Of a DNA stretch of 22,463 bases, positions 3,575 through 16,202 are shown one piece after another. The translations under genes were made by a program, and so were the position numbers. The stretch comes from a virus: positions 1 to 22,463 of the IMG/VR virus record IMGVR_UViG_3300037070_008003. One strand, given 5' to 3'. The first letter of the stretch is position 1; the number at the start of each line of letters is the position of its first letter. The notes below the pieces were generated by a model. That model was not told where the DNA came from, made no database searches, and saw nothing but the letters and a program-made list of their open reading frames with translations.

Positions 3575-3626
3575 GTGGCACTCGCATACTGAGGCTGCGG
3601 TGCGGTCCTAGTATACCGCCGGTCAG

Positions 3627-3643
3627 CCGTCTGTCCTAGACGG
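3627..3643 (+). promoter_or_regulatory. Hairpin covering the ribosome site of the replication gene
   Basis: CCGTCT (3627-3632) and AGACGG (3638-3643) form a 6-bp stem with a 5-nt loop. Its 3' arm overlaps the GGAG site at 3642-3645 used by ATG 3653, so folding of the leader could limit translation. A second small inverted repeat, GCGGT/ACCGC at 3602-3619, sits just upstream around CCTAGTATA and could be an operator. No convincing promoter was found in 3575-3652. Confidence 0.45.
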
Positions 3644-3652
3644 AGTGACTTG

Positions 3653-4429
3653 ATGCGCTCAAGAATCCTGAAACCAGAGTTCTTCCGTGACGTGAAAGTC
3701 TTAGGATTAGACCCGCTCAATCGCTTGCTCTTCGCCGGTCTCTGGTGCCTGGCTGACCGTGAGGGTCGCCTGAGTGATGAGCCGGGGCAGATCAAGATTG
3801 ACGTAATTCCCGTTGACGATCTGGACGTTGACAGCGCGCTTGATTGCATTCAGCGTGCCGGCCTGATCACGAGATATGCCGTCGATGGGCGGCAATTCAT
3901 CCAGGTCGTCAACTTCCTCAGACACCAGAATCCGCACGTCCGAGAATCGGCTAGCACGGTGCCAGCACCAGGCCAGCACTGTGCTAAGCACGACCTAGGC
4001 AGTGCTAGGCATGGCCTAGGCGAAGGCGAGGCATCGCCTAGATCGCCTATTTCTATTTCTATTTCTGATTCTGTTTCAGTAGACGCTTCTCCTAACGGAG
4101 AAGCTAGTGCCAGGCCCAGGAAATTACGGCGGCCAGTCTCAGCCAGACGGACGCCAGAAGAGATCGCCACGCACGAGCCGATCCTGTTCGGCAAGCTGTG
4201 GGCGTTCTTCGGCAAGCACGGCTCGTGCGAGAAGGCGGCGCGCGAATGGGATGCCCTGGCACCGTCGCGTGACGAGATGAAGATCATTCGGGCCGCCATC
4301 GAGAATCAACGGGCGGCCTACCGCTGGGGCCAGGAAGGGGGGCAGACCCAGCCACATCTCTCGACCTGGCTACACGGTCGCAATTGGGAATGGGACGCGG
4401 TGCCCAACAAGATCGCGAGGGGAGAATGA
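3653..4429 (+). CDS. Phage replication-initiator-like (replisome organiser) protein
   Basis: A 258-aa protein. ATG 3653 is chosen over the adjacent TTG because GGAG lies 7 nt upstream. The N-terminus (RILKPEFFRD, RLLFAGLWCLADREGRL, IPVDDLDVD, FIQVVNFLRHQNPH) is the recognisable winged-helix start of a widespread family of phage replication or replisome-organiser proteins. Residues ~98-155 are a low-complexity linker containing ISISISDSVSVD. The C-terminal ~100 residues include LFGKLWAFFGKHG and a terminal STWLHGRNWEWD, as in DnaD-like or helicase-loader proteins. It likely binds the origin and recruits host helicase. The linker DNA carries an array of short repeats and an AT-rich tract, as in the lambda O gene. 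It overlaps the next gene by ATGA. Confidence 0.87.
   Translation: MRSRILKPEFFRDVKVLGLDPLNRLLFAGLWCLADREGRLSDEPGQIKIDVIPVDDLDVDSALDCIQRAGLITRYAVDGRQFIQVVNFLRHQNPHVRESASTVPAPGQHCAKHDLGSARHGLGEGEASPRSPISISISDSVSVDASPNGEASARPRKLRRPVSARRTPEEIATHEPILFGKLWAFFGKHGSCEKAAREWDALAPSRDEMKIIRAAIENQRAAYRWGQEGGQTQPHLSTWLHGRNWEWDAVPNKIARGE
4048..4077. repeat. Tandem hexamer repeat, AT-rich
   Basis: Three exact TATTTC units are followed by TGATTC and TGTTTC, making five 6-bp units coding for alternating Ile/Val/Asp and Ser. It is the most AT-rich run in this neighbourhood and the likely melting element of the proposed origin. Confidence 0.85.
4085..4104. repeat. Perfect 8-bp inverted repeat beside the proposed origin
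   Basis: Arms GCTTCTCC (4085-4092) and GGAGAAGC (4097-4104) enclose a TAAC loop. It lies directly after the AT-rich hexamers inside the replication gene and may be part of the origin structure, such as a primer or protein site. Confidence 0.7.
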
Positions 4430-4734
4430 GCGACGACGATCTAGACGACGTGTTTCCGACCGCCCCGACGCCGATTCGCAAGGCCAAGATCGGCTCGTTT
4501 GACGACCCGACCGTGCGCGCCAAATGGGAGCACGTCAACGACGATCTCCCGGCCTGGCATGAAGCGCAGGCCGAACTGGCCGAATGCACCGCGCCGATGG
4601 CGTGCGAGATCGGTCAGTATGCTCACCGGCTCACGATCTGCTCGCACCATCCCTATCACGGGGAGATGGCGTATGCGTTCGGTCGCGCCTGGGCCTGGGA
4701 TGGCGGCAAGCACGCCTGGGAGCGCATGTCATGA
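4426..4734 (+). CDS. Small acidic hypothetical protein
   Basis: A 102-aa protein that I do not recognise. ATG 4426 overlaps the stop of the replication gene (ATGA) and is served by GGGGAGA at 4419-4425, so translation is probably coupled. The N-terminus is acidic (MSDDDLDDVF). The middle has alternating charge, and the C-terminus holds C and H residues (ECTAPMACE, ICSHHPYHGE) ending in an aromatic stretch AFGRAWAWDGGKHAWERM. The C/H pairs might bind metal, but the spacing does not match a family I know. Position between a replication initiator and a sigma factor suggests an early gene. It overlaps the sigma gene by ATGA. Confidence 0.78.
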   Translation: MSDDDLDDVFPTAPTPIRKAKIGSFDDPTVRAKWEHVNDDLPAWHEAQAELAECTAPMACEIGQYAHRLTICSHHPYHGEMAYAFGRAWAWDGGKHAWERMS

Positions 4735-5351
4735 CGCTCTCGCGACGGTCACAGGTCGCGAACGACCTGGCCGACAAGATTACGCCCGGCGACGAACGCG
4801 CCTTTACCGACCTGACCGACTTCCTGAGCGGCGAGATGCGCCGCTACGCCTATCACATGTTGCCGTCGATAAGCGAGACCCGCAACGAGGATGCCGACGA
4901 TATCACCCAGGCGACGGTGGCACGGGCCTGGGTCGCCTACCAGGCGAGCGAGATCGAGCCGGGCAATATCCGCGCCTGGATGATGACCAGCATCCGCAAT
5001 CGTTGTATCGACCTGATACGCCGCCGGAAACGCTGGCGCATGGAATCCTGGGACGCGCCGACCCATGACGGTCTCCTGTCTGACAACGACCAGGGCGCAC
5101 TCGACCAGATGGTCGAGCATGAAGATGCCGTGCGCGTCAGGCGGGCGCTGGCGATGACCAGCCCGCGTCACCGGCTGGCGCTCGTGCTGCGCGAGTATCA
5201 CGAGATGCCGCTCGAAGAGATTGGCCGCTGCCTGGGTCGCGACGACGGCGGTCGGCAAATGATGAAGTCGCTCCTGTTTCGCGCTCGCGACGAACTGCGC
5301 CAGCACTATCTGGCGCTGCTCGACCAGGAGCGCCTGGCCCGCGCCGGATGA
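4731..5351 (+). CDS. ECF-type RNA polymerase sigma factor
   Basis: A 206-aa protein. ATG 4731 overlaps the previous stop (ATGA) and marks the start of the sigma homology, although the frame is open further upstream. Region 2 covers ~21-104: DADDITQATVARAWVAY, then NIRAWMMTSIRNRCIDLIRRRKR, the core-binding and -10 recognition helices. Region 4 covers ~136-193: ALAMTSPRHRLALVLREYHE, PLEEIGRCLG and a recognition helix ending SLLFRARDELR. Regions 1 and 3 are absent, so it is ECF-like (group 4). It should redirect host RNA polymerase to phage promoters. No anti-sigma gene is seen beside it; neighbours are a small acidic protein and a secreted transglycosylase. Its promoter sequence cannot be deduced directly. 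Confidence 0.92.
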   Translation: MTLSRRSQVANDLADKITPGDERAFTDLTDFLSGEMRRYAYHMLPSISETRNEDADDITQATVARAWVAYQASEIEPGNIRAWMMTSIRNRCIDLIRRRKRWRMESWDAPTHDGLLSDNDQGALDQMVEHEDAVRVRRALAMTSPRHRLALVLREYHEMPLEEIGRCLGRDDGGRQMMKSLLFRARDELRQHYLALLDQERLARAG

Positions 5352-12008: not shown

Positions 12009-13006
12009 TGGCAGAGATCGACCTGGCAGAACTGCGGCGGCGGCTGGCGGCGGCAACGCACGGCGAATGGGGCGCGACCTACGAGGACTCGACCTATGGC
12101 GCGGGCTTGTTTTCGCCAGAAGGCGTGTACCTGGGCGAAGAAGAGGACGCCGTGCTCATCGTTGCCGCCGTGGACGCCCTGCCCGTGCTGCTGGGCCGAC
12201 TGGCGGCGGCCGAGGCGCGGGCGGCGGAATTGGATGCAGAGGTCGAGCGCCAGATGGACAAGGCACAGCAACTGGATGCCCGCCTGTGGGATCAGGGCTT
12301 ACTGACGAAACGATTGGTGGCGGCCGAGTCCCTGCTTGCCGAAAAGACAGCGGCGATCCAGGGATTGCTCGATCAGGTTCATGATCTTGCAGGTGATCTG
12401 GGCAAGGCCAGGAATGAGTTGCTCCTCACGCAGCGAGACTCACAGCGGGGCATCGCGGCGCTCGAAGCGGCCGAGGCGCGTGCGGCTCGCGGAGAGGAAC
12501 ACTGGCGACAGGCCGAGTTGTCGTGCAGCGTGCTGGTGGCTCGTGCCGAGGCCGCCGAGGCGCGGGTGGCGGCTCTCGAAGCCGCACACGCCCCGCTTCG
12601 GGCCGAACTAGAGCAACAGCGCGACCGGGCAGAGGATGCCGAGGCGCGGCTGGCGGCGCATGAGGACGCCATCTACGAACATGCCTACAAGAACCTTGTG
12701 CGGGACGTGATCGACGCACTGGGCGACGATCCGAACGATTGGGACTATGAGGGCAGCGATGAACGGCTGCCGCAGGCCATTCGTGATCGTTTGGTCGCCT
12801 ACGAGGTTATCCGCGAGAGCGACGGCAAGCGCATAGCGGCCCTCACAGCGGTGGCGCGGGCGCTCGTTACCGATCAGGTTGTACCGCGAAAGCTTCTGAA
12901 CGACCGCCGGCTCTGCCTCTGGTGCCGTGCATTCGTGGACGAAGAAGGTCACGCCGACGATTGTCTGGTCGGGGCACTCGCGGCGCTGCTGGATGGAGAT
13001 GCCTGA
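12008..13006 (+). CDS. Coiled-coil protein with C-terminal zinc motif (Ea22-like)
   Basis: A 332-aa protein. ATG 12008 shares its A with the previous stop; AGGA lies at 11998-12001. The N-terminus (IDLAELRRRLAAATHGEWGA, then DAVLIVAAVDALPVLLGRL) resembles phage Ea22/Ead-type proteins. Residues ~60-220 form a long alanine/glutamate/arginine coiled coil in which the unit AEAR occurs four times (coding word CGAGGCGCG at 12211, 12472, 12556 and 12640). The last ~35 residues have CLWCRAFVDEEGHADDC, a C-x2-C-x8-H-x3-C zinc-binding pattern, then an LL-rich helix. Ea22-like genes are accessory and of unknown function. It is joined to the next gene by TGATG. Confidence 0.82.
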   Translation: MAEIDLAELRRRLAAATHGEWGATYEDSTYGAGLFSPEGVYLGEEEDAVLIVAAVDALPVLLGRLAAAEARAAELDAEVERQMDKAQQLDARLWDQGLLTKRLVAAESLLAEKTAAIQGLLDQVHDLAGDLGKARNELLLTQRDSQRGIAALEAAEARAARGEEHWRQAELSCSVLVARAEAAEARVAALEAAHAPLRAELEQQRDRAEDAEARLAAHEDAIYEHAYKNLVRDVIDALGDDPNDWDYEGSDERLPQAIRDRLVAYEVIRESDGKRIAALTAVARALVTDQVVPRKLLNDRRLCLWCRAFVDEEGHADDCLVGALAALLDGDA

Positions 13007-13488
13007 TGTACACCTGGGACTTCCTGGCCCAAGCGGCACACTACCCGGTCATCCCCAAGCAGGCCGCCGCCTACCGGCACCTGCCCGGCGGCGCATTTGC
13101 GCTGGCGTTCCCTGACGACCACATCACGAGCGCCGGCTGGCACGCTTATCTCTATATCCGACCCGAAGCAACGCCCACGGTTGGTCGCATCGCCTTCCTG
13201 TGGCGACCGGCCACGCTATCACCCTATCTGCCGTCGTTCACCGTTCAGATCAGGTCGCAGCATGACCGGAGCGAGGTGCACTCCGACCTGACCATCGACC
13301 CGTCGAGCCTGGGCATCTATTTCTCGTGGCCCGCGTCCTGGCTGCCCGACACCTGGCTCGATATATCGCTCATCCGGCACGGCACCGCGCCGGACGACAC
13401 CCTGCCCGGCGATGCGCTCATCCTGTCGGGCTTCCTGGGCGGCTACCCGGCCGGCGACAGCCCCATTACAGAGAAGGAAATCACATGA
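13006..13488 (+). CDS. Hypothetical beta-rich protein, 160 aa
   Basis: ATG 13006 overlaps the previous stop (TGATG), with GGAGATG just upstream. The product is rich in aromatic residues and alternating strands (GWHAYLYIRPEATPTVGRIAF, FTVQIRSQHDRSEVHSDLTI, WLDISLIRHG), so an all-beta sandwich or virion-surface domain is plausible. I do not recognise a family. It lacks a signal peptide. It overlaps the next small gene by ATGA. Confidence 0.75.
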   Translation: MYTWDFLAQAAHYPVIPKQAAAYRHLPGGAFALAFPDDHITSAGWHAYLYIRPEATPTVGRIAFLWRPATLSPYLPSFTVQIRSQHDRSEVHSDLTIDPSSLGIYFSWPASWLPDTWLDISLIRHGTAPDDTLPGDALILSGFLGGYPAGDSPITEKEIT

Positions 13489-13622
13489 GCAGATTTATGA
13501 CCGGCTTTCGCCAGGGCTGCTGCTGCCTCTGGCTCGCGTGTCTGCCCGTCCTGGCGCTGGCACTTGTCGCGTTCGTGACCGTTATGACGACACGGAGAGA
13601 TTCTCATGCCACATCCGAGTGA
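13485..13622 (+). CDS. Very small single-span membrane protein
   Basis: A 45-aa product from ATG 13485 (ATGA overlap; AGAAGGAAA at 13472-13480). It has a short basic N-terminus, one hydrophobic segment ~11-35 including GCCCLWLACLPVLALALVAF, and a charged tail (TRRDSHATSE). It could be a holin-like or spanin-like peptide, or an unrelated membrane micro-protein. The good ribosome site and position between coupled genes support translation; the function is open. It overlaps the next gene by 17 nt. Confidence 0.62.
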   Translation: MSRFMTGFRQGCCCLWLACLPVLALALVAFVTVMTTRRDSHATSE

Positions 13623-14193
13623 CCAGACCTTTCATCCACGCATCCCTGACGGCGTGGTCGGTGCGACCACGCCGGTCGAGATCAGCCAGCAGCAGTACGT
13701 CGATACGCTGGCAACCCTGGTGCGCGACTCTATCGAGATTCAGACCATCCGTGGCCTGGTCGTCGCGGGCGACGGTCGTGACACGTTCGCGCTGCCCGTC
13801 TTTGATCTCGACTGCCAGGCCCAGCGCCCCGATCTCTATCGCGCCATCACGCACCAGGCGATCCCTGACGGTGCCGATCTGCGCTGGCTATGGACGCTGT
13901 ATCAGGATATCGCCGCGCCGGTCATGCCCGGTGCCGCCTGCCGCGAGGGCGTGGCCGTCTTGCGGGTGACGCTCGCGCACGGCACCCCGCACGAGATCGA
14001 CTTCCTGCTGAGTTTCCCATTGCCCGAACAGGCGCACAAGCTCGATATGATCATCGAGTCGCACGGCTTGCTGGCGCTGTGCCCGGTCAACGGCGATATT
14101 GTCACGGCCAGTCTCCTGATCGAGACCGATGGCGCGATTATCGACCAGATGTTGCTCGACGCGGGCGCACGCCGAAGGGACCAACGACCATGA
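13606..14193 (+). CDS. Hypothetical protein, 195 aa
   Basis: It starts at ATG 13606 with GGAGAG at 13593-13598. I do not recognise it. It looks like a mixed alpha/beta cytoplasmic domain: a helix YVDTLATLVRDSIEI, strands IRGLVVAGDG and REGVAVLRVTLAHG, then an amphipathic helix and DIVTASLLIETDGAIIDQML. The alternation VLRVTLAHG/EIDFLLSFP suggests a central sheet. It ends in a basic tail and overlaps the next gene by ATGA. Confidence 0.77.
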   Translation: MPHPSDQTFHPRIPDGVVGATTPVEISQQQYVDTLATLVRDSIEIQTIRGLVVAGDGRDTFALPVFDLDCQAQRPDLYRAITHQAIPDGADLRWLWTLYQDIAAPVMPGAACREGVAVLRVTLAHGTPHEIDFLLSFPLPEQAHKLDMIIESHGLLALCPVNGDIVTASLLIETDGAIIDQMLLDAGARRRDQRP

Positions 14194-15035
14194 ACGCCGA
14201 TCATCCTGCCATGAGTCACCCACGGGTCAAAGCGTTCTTCGATGACCTGGCAGCCGATGCCGAATCCGACGCCTGGTCGAGTGTTCCAACGTTCGACCTG
14301 ACCCAGCGCCTTGAGGCCGTGATCATCGGCCTGGGCCTGGCGAGCCTGGCGACGAATCCCGACTACGTCGTGCGCCCGACGCCCGATCTGGTCACGCTCG
14401 AACTCGCCTATGCGCGCCTCTTAGACCTGACCGTGGCCGGCGATCAGATGGCGTCGTTCTCTGTCGCCCATAAAGCGCCGTGCGAACTCGCCCGCCCCCA
14501 GCCCGGCCGCTGCCAGGACGACTGGCAGGCCGCCACGAGCGCCTGGTTCACGACCGTCATGGGCCAGGATCGCATCCAGCCACCCAGCCAGCCGGTGCCC
14601 TTCTCGACCCTGCCCGATTCGGTCATGCCGACCTGGGAAGAAATCAAGTCGAAGATCGTGCGCGACAATCGCGATCATGACGCAGAGACCGCGCCCATCA
14701 CATACACCGTTCCCGCCCTGCACAAGCTCAAAAGCGCCCTGGCGCGCATTCCCGACATGATCGCCCCCGGCGATGACGTGGGCATGACCGCACCCTTACA
14801 TGGCTGGCGCGACCTGATCGAGTACACCGATAGGCTGGCGCACGAGCATCGGGTCATGACCAGCGTCCTGATCGAGGCCGCCGCCGTCATGAATCTCCTG
14901 GTCAACCCCGACCCCGATGAGACCCGCGATACCGGCGAGCAGGTGCAGGCGATCTACGACCGCGCCGCGACCCTCTTGCCCAGCCTGAACCACGCCCTGA
15001 TCATGACTGGACACGCCAATGCCACCGTCGAGTAG
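14190..15035 (+). CDS. Hypothetical protein, 281 aa
   Basis: ATG 14190 overlaps the preceding stop (ATGA), with AAGGGA at 14175-14180; the frame is open 300 nt upstream but that part is out-of-frame reading of the previous gene. The protein is mostly helical and acidic with no membrane segment (RLEAVIIGLGLASLATN, TLELAYARLLDLTVAGDQMA, HRVMTSVLIEAAAVMNLLV, then DRAATLLPSLNHALIM). I cannot assign a family. The 3' end overlaps the next gene by 17 nt. Confidence 0.76.
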   Translation: MNADHPAMSHPRVKAFFDDLAADAESDAWSSVPTFDLTQRLEAVIIGLGLASLATNPDYVVRPTPDLVTLELAYARLLDLTVAGDQMASFSVAHKAPCELARPQPGRCQDDWQAATSAWFTTVMGQDRIQPPSQPVPFSTLPDSVMPTWEEIKSKIVRDNRDHDAETAPITYTVPALHKLKSALARIPDMIAPGDDVGMTAPLHGWRDLIEYTDRLAHEHRVMTSVLIEAAAVMNLLVNPDPDETRDTGEQVQAIYDRAATLLPSLNHALIMTGHANATVE

Positions 15036-15543
15036 AGGCCAGCACATCTTACAGACCGACGCCGATAAGCTGGCCGCCGTCGAACAGGGCAAGCTCGATC
15101 TCCCATCCCCAGACACCCGCCCCGATATCTTCGACATAACCAGCGAACCAGGCTGGCTGATCACGCCCTGGGGCCGCTACGAGCGCCTCAGGCCACTCAG
15201 GCGCATTATTCGTGATGGCCCCACCCAACCAGCCAACCCCAACGCCTGCTGGGCCTGTGGTCGCGAGCGTTGGCACGCGCACCCCAACGGCGAGCGCATC
15301 TGTCTGATCTGTCACCCGATTGATGGAGTCATCCCCGCCGTCTATGCCAAACCCGCACAGCCCCTGCTTGACGTGCCCGACCAGAAGCGCGGTACACTCG
15401 CGCAACCCAGGGCACCAAAAGCACGGCCAGAAAGGAAGGCAAAGCCAACGATCACGGCCCAGCAAGCCAAATACGCCTGGACACCGATTTCGGCCACCCC
15501 GTCAAACGGTGAGGCCAAACACGACAAGGATTTGCCGCTATGA
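15019..15543 (+). CDS. Zinc-ribbon protein with basic tail
   Basis: A 174-aa protein starting at ATG 15019, within the end of the previous gene; the ribosome site is weak, so coupling is likely. Residues 77-99 contain CWACGRERWHAHPNG and ICLICHP, a C-x2-C-x14-C-x2-C zinc ribbon of the kind found at the ends of replication and DNA-processing enzymes. The C-terminal ~60 residues are basic and proline/lysine-rich (RAPKARPERKAKPTI) and look disordered, which fits nucleic-acid binding. It directly precedes the resolvase gene (ATGA overlap), so a joint role in DNA processing is plausible but unproven. Confidence 0.78.
   Translation: MPPSSRGQHILQTDADKLAAVEQGKLDLPSPDTRPDIFDITSEPGWLITPWGRYERLRPLRRIIRDGPTQPANPNACWACGRERWHAHPNGERICLICHPIDGVIPAVYAKPAQPLLDVPDQKRGTLAQPRAPKARPERKAKPTITAQQAKYAWTPISATPSNGEAKHDKDLPL
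15368..15398 (+). promoter_or_regulatory. Possible promoter inside the zinc-ribbon gene
   Basis: TTGACG (15368-15373) and TACACT (15393-15398) are each close to sigma70 consensus, but the 19-bp spacer is long. It would start transcription about 140 nt ahead of the resolvase start and about 200 nt ahead of the terminator-like hairpin at 15606. Confidence 0.3.
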
Positions 15544-16202
15544 ACGCCCGCACCCTGTTTCGACCCGCGCCCCAGATCGGGCGTAAAAATCGAGAGGCAC
15601 GCCTGGCCCCCGACTTCGGGGGCTTTTCTCATGCCCAGTTAGACGCCCTGACCGACCAGCCCATCCTGGCACTCGACCTGGCCTCTCACGTCTGCGGCTG
15701 GGCGCTCTACTGGCTGAGCGACGAGAAACGCGCCCGCGCCGGCTCGATCATGTTGAGCCAGGGCAGGGCACGCACGCAGCTAGGCGACCGGATTGCGACC
15801 CTGTCACGCAGCGTGTACGATCTCTATAAGACCGCCGGGGGCACCGGAGATACCCCGGCCCTGATCGCGGTCGAGACCCCTGATCTCATGGTCGAGGGCA
15901 TGGTGACGAACCCCAACACGCTCAAGTCGCTCTATGCCTGCCTGGGGGCCGTCTATGCCTTCGCGACTGATTTTCATGTGCCCGTGCTCGAAGTGGACCC
16001 CAGGCACGTCAAGGCTCGCACCACGGGCAACCTGACGGCGAACAAGGGCGCGGTTCAGCAGTATCTAGAGCGCCGTGGCTTCACGCTGGGCCAGACCGTG
16101 ACCGGCATGGTCGATCATGACGCTGCTGATGCACTGGCACTGGCGGTCGTGGTCGCGGATGAGGCGCATATGATCAGATTGGCGAAGCGGATCGCCCTGT
16201 GA
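15540..16202 (+). CDS. RuvC-like Holliday-junction resolvase
   Basis: A 220-aa protein starting at ATG 15540 (ATGA overlap, AAGGAT at 15527-15532). The RNase-H-like fold motifs are present: LALDLASHVCGWALY with D45, ALIAVETPD with E112, and VDHDAADALA with D194 and D197, matching the spacing of the RuvC catalytic acids D7, E66, D138 and D141. VPVLEVDPRHVKAR and TGNLTANKGAVQQYLERRG match the conserved region before the last acids. Phage enzymes of this kind cleave branched DNA before packaging, which fits a place just upstream of the terminase genes. The first ~40 residues are extra to the fold, and their DNA carries a terminator-like hairpin. Confidence 0.9.
   Translation: MNARTLFRPAPQIGRKNREARLAPDFGGFSHAQLDALTDQPILALDLASHVCGWALYWLSDEKRARAGSIMLSQGRARTQLGDRIATLSRSVYDLYKTAGGTGDTPALIAVETPDLMVEGMVTNPNTLKSLYACLGAVYAFATDFHVPVLEVDPRHVKARTTGNLTANKGAVQQYLERRGFTLGQTVTGMVDHDAADALALAVVVADEAHMIRLAKRIAL
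15606..15627 (+). terminator. Terminator-like hairpin inside the resolvase coding region
   Basis: GCCCCCGA (15606-15613) and TCGGGGGC (15616-15623) are perfectly complementary and are followed at once by TTTT. This is the form of an intrinsic terminator (stem GCCCCCG with a CGGGGGC partner and a small loop), yet it lies 66 nt inside the resolvase gene. It could attenuate transcription of the resolvase or end a transcript that starts upstream. Confidence 0.6.

Follow-up and report, generated by a model that had tools for sequence, protein, structure and literature searches.

A very probable phage replication origin within the coding sequence of its initiator

Can a stretch of phage DNA serve both as the coding sequence of a replication initiator and as the origin of replication? 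The question is raised by IMGVR_UViG_3300037070_008003, a linear phage fragment of 22,463 bp that was analysed over the entire IMG/VR record (hereafter "the window"). Its gene at 3653..4429 (+ strand) encodes a protein of 258 aa, and inside this gene, at 3951-4107, the original prediction placed an origin comparable to that of phage lambda, on the strength of three GCAnnnCCTAG direct repeats, several AGCAC/GTGCT elements, six CTAG tetramers, five AT-rich hexamers and a perfect hairpin.

In a profile search the 258-aa protein matched eleven PHROGs, mostly described as 'replication initiation protein'; the best is phrog_16167 (E=1.5e-40 over aa 1-128), the other ten are weaker, and phrog_12556, phrog_1408 and others belong to the same set. 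No match was found in Pfam at E <= 0.1 or in NCBIfam, the profile search against solved structures returned nothing meaningful, and the Rfam search gave no match. The AlphaFold2 model comprises a winged-helix-like N-domain of helices and a two-strand wing (about aa 1-105/110, pLDDT around 95), a linker predicted to be disordered (aa 113-161, pLDDT <50) and, downstream of it, a helical C-domain. Structure 4pt7 tops the Foldseek PDB results for this model, at a non-significant E-value (E=0.043; TM 0.46 by target length); its PDB title reads merely 'Structure of initiator', and we take it to be a RepA_N protein. The DNA at 3951-4107 encodes aa 100-152, largely the disordered linker, so that with the PHROG initiator match the elements do lie, as proposed, in the linker of a replication protein. 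The initiator gene is followed by an ORF encoding 102 aa and by one for a sigma-70-like protein (regions 2 and 4; 4731-5351, two genes past the initiator) and not by a P-like loader, and among the scanned genes of the record, itself a fragment, no DnaB, DnaC or P protein was recognised. Searches with the initiator, the AAA ATPase, the sigma-like gene or the whole record (megablast) yielded no close relatives of this phage. Two CCTAG elements also occur upstream of the initiator start, at 3600-3640, one of them within the inverted repeat CCGTCTGTCCTAGACGG; they are possibly the promoter or operator of the initiator gene.

The segment begins with an array of iterons at 3951..4041 (+ strand), identified by tests of both sequence and period and comprising some nine units spaced by close to 11 bp. 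AG(C/G)C marks units at 3953, 3964, 3975, 3987, 3997, 4007, 4018 and 4029, with AG at 4040, which gives spacings of 11, 11, 12, 10, 10, 11, 11 and 11 when the fourth unit is read from AGCAC at 3987. The upstream units TAGCACGGTGC, CAGCACCAGGC and CAGCACTGTGC (3952..3984, +) were recognised by chaining against the family profile and fit the consensus AAGCACCRKRC. They are followed by the 18-bp palindromic iteron GCACGACCTAGGCAGTGC (3988..4005), which consists of two opposed units, by the second GCAnnnCCTAG unit GCATGGCCTAG (4009..4019, +), continued as a degenerate inverted half to 4026, and by the third, GCATCGCCTAG (4031..4041, +). GCAnnnCCTAG is present on the plus strand at 3988, 4009 and 4031, spaced by 21 and 22 bp, and a minus-strand copy at 3995-4005 makes four. 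The three repeats and all other elements listed in the original prediction are in place, but its anatomy was incomplete, since the 21-22 bp repeats are every second unit of the run of about nine with its 11-bp period.

In 5000 shuffles of synonymous codons within the gene, which leave the protein unchanged, 0.67 CTAG, 1.4 AGCAC/GTGCT and 0.11 GCAnnnCCTAG were expected, against six, six and three observed (each p < 2e-4). The CTAG tetramers, under-represented in the rest of the record, start at 3951, 3995, 4005, 4016, 4038 and 4104, and the AGCAC/GTGCT elements fall within 3953-4006. GCAnnnCCTAG is absent elsewhere in the 22.5 kb (four matches were reached in 0/100 shuffles), and no other 157-nt stretch of the record equals the counts of the three elements at 3951-4107. 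Identity at period 11 reaches 0.51, where synonymous shuffles give 0.37 +/- 0.04 (p = 0.0004), and period 22 is also significant (p = 0.003); in the window sequence alone period 33 is not significant against such shuffles, and inverted 7-mer pairs and out-of-frame repeats are marginal (p 0.04-0.13). The repeats of the window are real, and protein coding does not account for them.

Beyond the iterons, the predicted AT-rich hexamers were found as a 6-bp array at 4048..4077 (+ strand; TATTTC three times, TGATTC and TGTTTC), with a period-6 run at p=0.0007 versus synonymous shuffles, and the perfect hairpin as 8-bp arms, GCTTCTCC-TAAC-GGAGAAGC, at 4085..4104 (z -3.6). The array falls in the most AT-rich 40-mer of the record. 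By comparison with the relatives described below it would be the counterpart of their 7-bp TGATTCC array, and it is a candidate unwinding or loading element. A change of GC skew had been suggested as a mark of the origin, and no extremum occurs at 3951-4107; this check has no power, because lambda itself is without a skew extremum at its ori. Skew is strongly negative at 13000-16000 of the window, and the cumulative curve of the fragment is lowest near 15-16 kb, which lies upstream of the terminase/portal genes.

Related proteins were found by tblastn in 111 phage records, and 160 more loci were drawn from IMG/VR and GTDB genomes. A redundancy filter on the linkers (30% shared 12-mers) left 129 genes; it lessens their shared ancestry without removing it, and the shuffle statistics ignore that ancestry. 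In several annotated phages a helicase loader (DnaC-like or P-like) or the helicase DnaB comes directly, or almost directly, after the initiator gene. In the linker 5' of the array (95 genes, synonymous-codon shuffles) identical 5-mers recur at 11 bp (506 vs 69 expected, z 34), 22 bp (278 vs 47, z 32), 33 bp (293 vs 109, z 12) and 44 bp (128 vs 25, z 15), and other spacings show no excess of this size. Since three does not divide 11, each unit falls in a different reading frame from the one before; direct out-of-frame 7-mer pairs in the linker before the array number 908, against 124 +/- 15 expected, while the control regions give 66 vs 72 +/- 11 (N-domain) and 142 vs 122 +/- 14 (C-terminal). 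The 11- and 7-bp periods are absent from the N-domain coding region of the family. Peaks at 7/14/21 and 11/22/33 reappeared in a hold-out of 18 further linkers, scanned separately over a fixed interval. Both this hold-out and the 5-mer analysis were made without the trained 11-bp profile, whose chain score, trained on the same data, exceeds the 95th percentile of shuffles in only 60 of the 95 linkers.

The second element is as regular as the first. Within the 300-nt linker region lie 328 of the 374 copies of TGATTC, where 58 +/- 6 would be expected with the protein fixed; they occupy both stop-free frames and are spaced mostly by 7, 8, 14, 15 and 21 bp. LIPDSLIPDS, DSGFLIPDS and DSLNLIPDS are peptide readings of the TGATTCC register. 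We infer that a pure TGATTCC tandem would run into an in-frame TGA, a stop that the frequent GGATTCC, CTTAACC or steps of 8 bp would avoid. At most one TGATTC is present in 35 genes, the window's included; 20 of these have a run of period 7 where 0.65 would be expected, and 16 have a run of period 11 where 1.07 would be, their units including AACAGGG, TGACTCC, TGAATCC and CTTAACC. The array thus keeps its period better than its sequence. The window shares with a few relatives an array of 6 bp in place of the 7-bp one; since the array of the window is thereby phased with the codons, frame independence can be demonstrated only in the family, on which the frame argument rests. An account of the array as a plain AT-rich tract is weakened by the most AT-rich 30-mer of the gene, which lies there in only 20 of 95 genes. 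One initiator fragment at a contig end (L173) carries about nine or more IPDPL repeats in its linker, apparently a runaway expansion of the array.

The iterons themselves are shared more widely than was first supposed. Palindromes of the class GC(A/G)-n2-4-CCWAGG-n1-3-(G/A)TGC occur in 12 copies, in all three frames, in linkers. These belong to nine genes: those of the window, of phages F10, JBD44 and IME307, and of loci L028, L056, L119, L150 and L161. The other 81 kb of the gene set contain no copy, and the repeat cannot be called specific to this phage. Whether the repeats change together with the N-terminal domain, as the original prediction asked, was examined over 90 genes. Partial correlation gives r 0.28 (p 0.001) between iteron similarity and N-domain identity when controlled for the C-domain, and a much lower r 0.09 (p 0.004) between iteron similarity and C-domain similarity when controlled for the N-domain. 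In pairs with unrelated C-domains iteron similarity climbs from 0.18 to 0.41 as N-domain identity rises. Such covariation would be expected if the N-domain reads the iterons, and as the linker adjoins the N-domain, linkage alone could give part of it. N-domains recur among proteins with unrelated C-domains, the switch falling at the linker.

Helically phased sites would fit any DNA-binding protein, and arrays that covary with a DNA-binding domain would also be found if the protein used them to repress its own gene while replication started elsewhere. We consider such an autoregulatory operator array quite improbable: the sites lie in the middle of the gene and not at a promoter (the sole nearby promoter-like match is on the minus strand, 3610-3637), the relatives sit in replication operons ahead of loaders or helicases, and the adjacent 6/7-bp array would be left unexplained. 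The switch of domains at the linker, together with the similarity of TGATTCC arrays in distant phages, might alternatively mark conserved low-complexity DNA that promotes the exchange of N- and C-domains between phages and has no part in initiation. A recombination joint of this kind is very improbable as the whole explanation, for the 7-bp period outlasts changes of sequence, which would not aid homologous exchange, and the iterons vary between phages yet retain their 11-bp period; origin and recombination joint could nevertheless both be true together. Exceedingly improbable is neutral low-complexity DNA expanding by slippage under an unconstrained peptide, since this suits a linker predicted to be disordered and the way in which short tandem arrays grow but predicts neither equal 11- and 7-bp periods in a fixed order across distant phages, nor palindromes in three frames, nor the association with the N-domain.

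We therefore return to the reading of the segment as a phage replication origin embedded in its own initiator's gene, which we regard as very probable. In favour of the likeness to lambda ori originally drawn are the PHROG family, the O-like gene position of relatives, and iterons that cross reading frames and are followed by the array. Repeats beyond the demands of the protein, their periodicities, their frame independence in the family, their location, their family-wide conservation and their association with the N-domain are all documented at the level of sequence, and it is strongly suggested that the DNA rather than the encoded peptide is what evolution preserves. In the mechanism that we infer, the winged-helix N-domain would bind the helically phased iterons at their spacing of about 11 bp and wrap or bend them; the adjoining short tandem array, with units of 6 bp in the window and 7 bp in most relatives, would open and present a single strand; and the C-domain would recruit or help to load the replicative helicase, via a loader where the phage encodes one. 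Origin and DNA-binding domain would travel as one cassette, and the linker would tolerate any sequence that the origin needs because the peptide it encodes is disordered. More tentatively, and less probably than not, the 6-/7-base array might be a periodic single-strand recognition element, DnaA-trio-like in its logic and not just an AT-rich melting region, that is read by a filament of initiator or loader, each protomer taking the same number of bases; the period of the array is kept over its sequence, and GGATTCC and CTTAACC would hold the register without a TGA stop.

Several linkers of the family contain nuclease-type domains. An HNH endonuclease domain precedes the DSLIPDS array within the initiator linker of loci L031, L033 (= L036) and L166; in L031 the iteron region is replaced by it, and both the array and the C-terminal part of this locus differ very little from those of L009 (phage yong1). 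The p19 protein of Myxococcus phage Mx8 (L011) has a T5orf172/MUG113 (GIY-YIG-like) domain, the nuclease type found in Odn, inserted in its linker at residues 129-204. Free-standing HNH proteins, 52% identical and without the initiator N-domain, are encoded directly 5' of the initiator in JBD44 (L004:56-802) and Dewey (L012:1683-2483). In Odn of ICP1 a nuclease domain is joined to an initiator-like domain (PMC8263062), and by a comparable logic the HNH domains in linkers may be homing or origin-targeting nucleases.

The analysis provides predicted, base-resolved origins for more than 100 phages and prophages, whose initiators are mostly without a curated family and for whose origins we found no description. 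One stretch of DNA would carry two codes, origin and protein, of which the DNA code would dominate and a peptide such as LIPDSLIPDS would be a by-product. Origin specificity, the swapping of initiator domains and origin-targeting nucleases become directly testable.

How does this arrangement compare with known systems? Iteron plasmids as a rule have their iterons helically phased, and an origin can lose its activity when this phasing is disturbed (PMC5043065). For RepA of the PLEs it was reported that the origin sequence changes in concert with the DNA-binding domain and moves together with it as a module (PMC8263062); the PLE origin differs from that of the window in being intergenic, with three semi-palindromic iterons of about 30 bp, and in belonging to another protein family. 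PHROG family descriptions cover the protein only, with no origin in the descriptions returned, and a search of the open-access literature found no description of the 11+7 layout, which may have been mentioned earlier for single phages.

The nearest parallels are lambda and pSK41. The lambda origin lies in the middle of the O gene and is made of iterons and an AT-rich tract (PMC7466680). With it the window shares the mid-gene position, the order of iterons before AT-rich tract and the palindromic sites about two helical turns apart (PMC7466680), and several relatives of the window gene share its O-P-like gene position. Lambda differs in its four 18-bp iterons at 20-24 bp, with a period of 23-24 and no 11-bp period, whereas the window combines the 21-/22-bp CCTAG spacing with a significant 11-bp period and a 6-bp tandem array (7-bp in relatives). 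Membership of the lambda O family was considered and rejected: PF04492 and TIGR01610 hit lambda O only and not the window protein, and hhalign gave a probability of 0.2, in keeping with the earlier view that the protein is no obvious O homologue. In plasmid pSK41, according to the part of the source drawn on here, a winged-helix N-terminal domain binds Rep boxes located centrally within rep, the linker encoded there is dispensable, and the C-domain is separate (PMC5703833). The window likewise has boxes inside the initiator gene, an N-domain predicted here to be winged-helix-like, a linker and a separate C-domain; its initiator is phage-borne, and the 11+7 pattern is not described for pSK41 in that part of the source. 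Membership of RepA_N was likewise set aside, PF06970 being unmatched by the window protein (Pfam, E <= 0.1) and the fold match not significant. Judged by its sequence features, the segment would work like lambda ori or a pSK41-type in-gene origin while being a member of neither, and it is best read as an in-gene origin of their kind with a different family of initiator and a distinct 11+7 (here 11+6) architecture.
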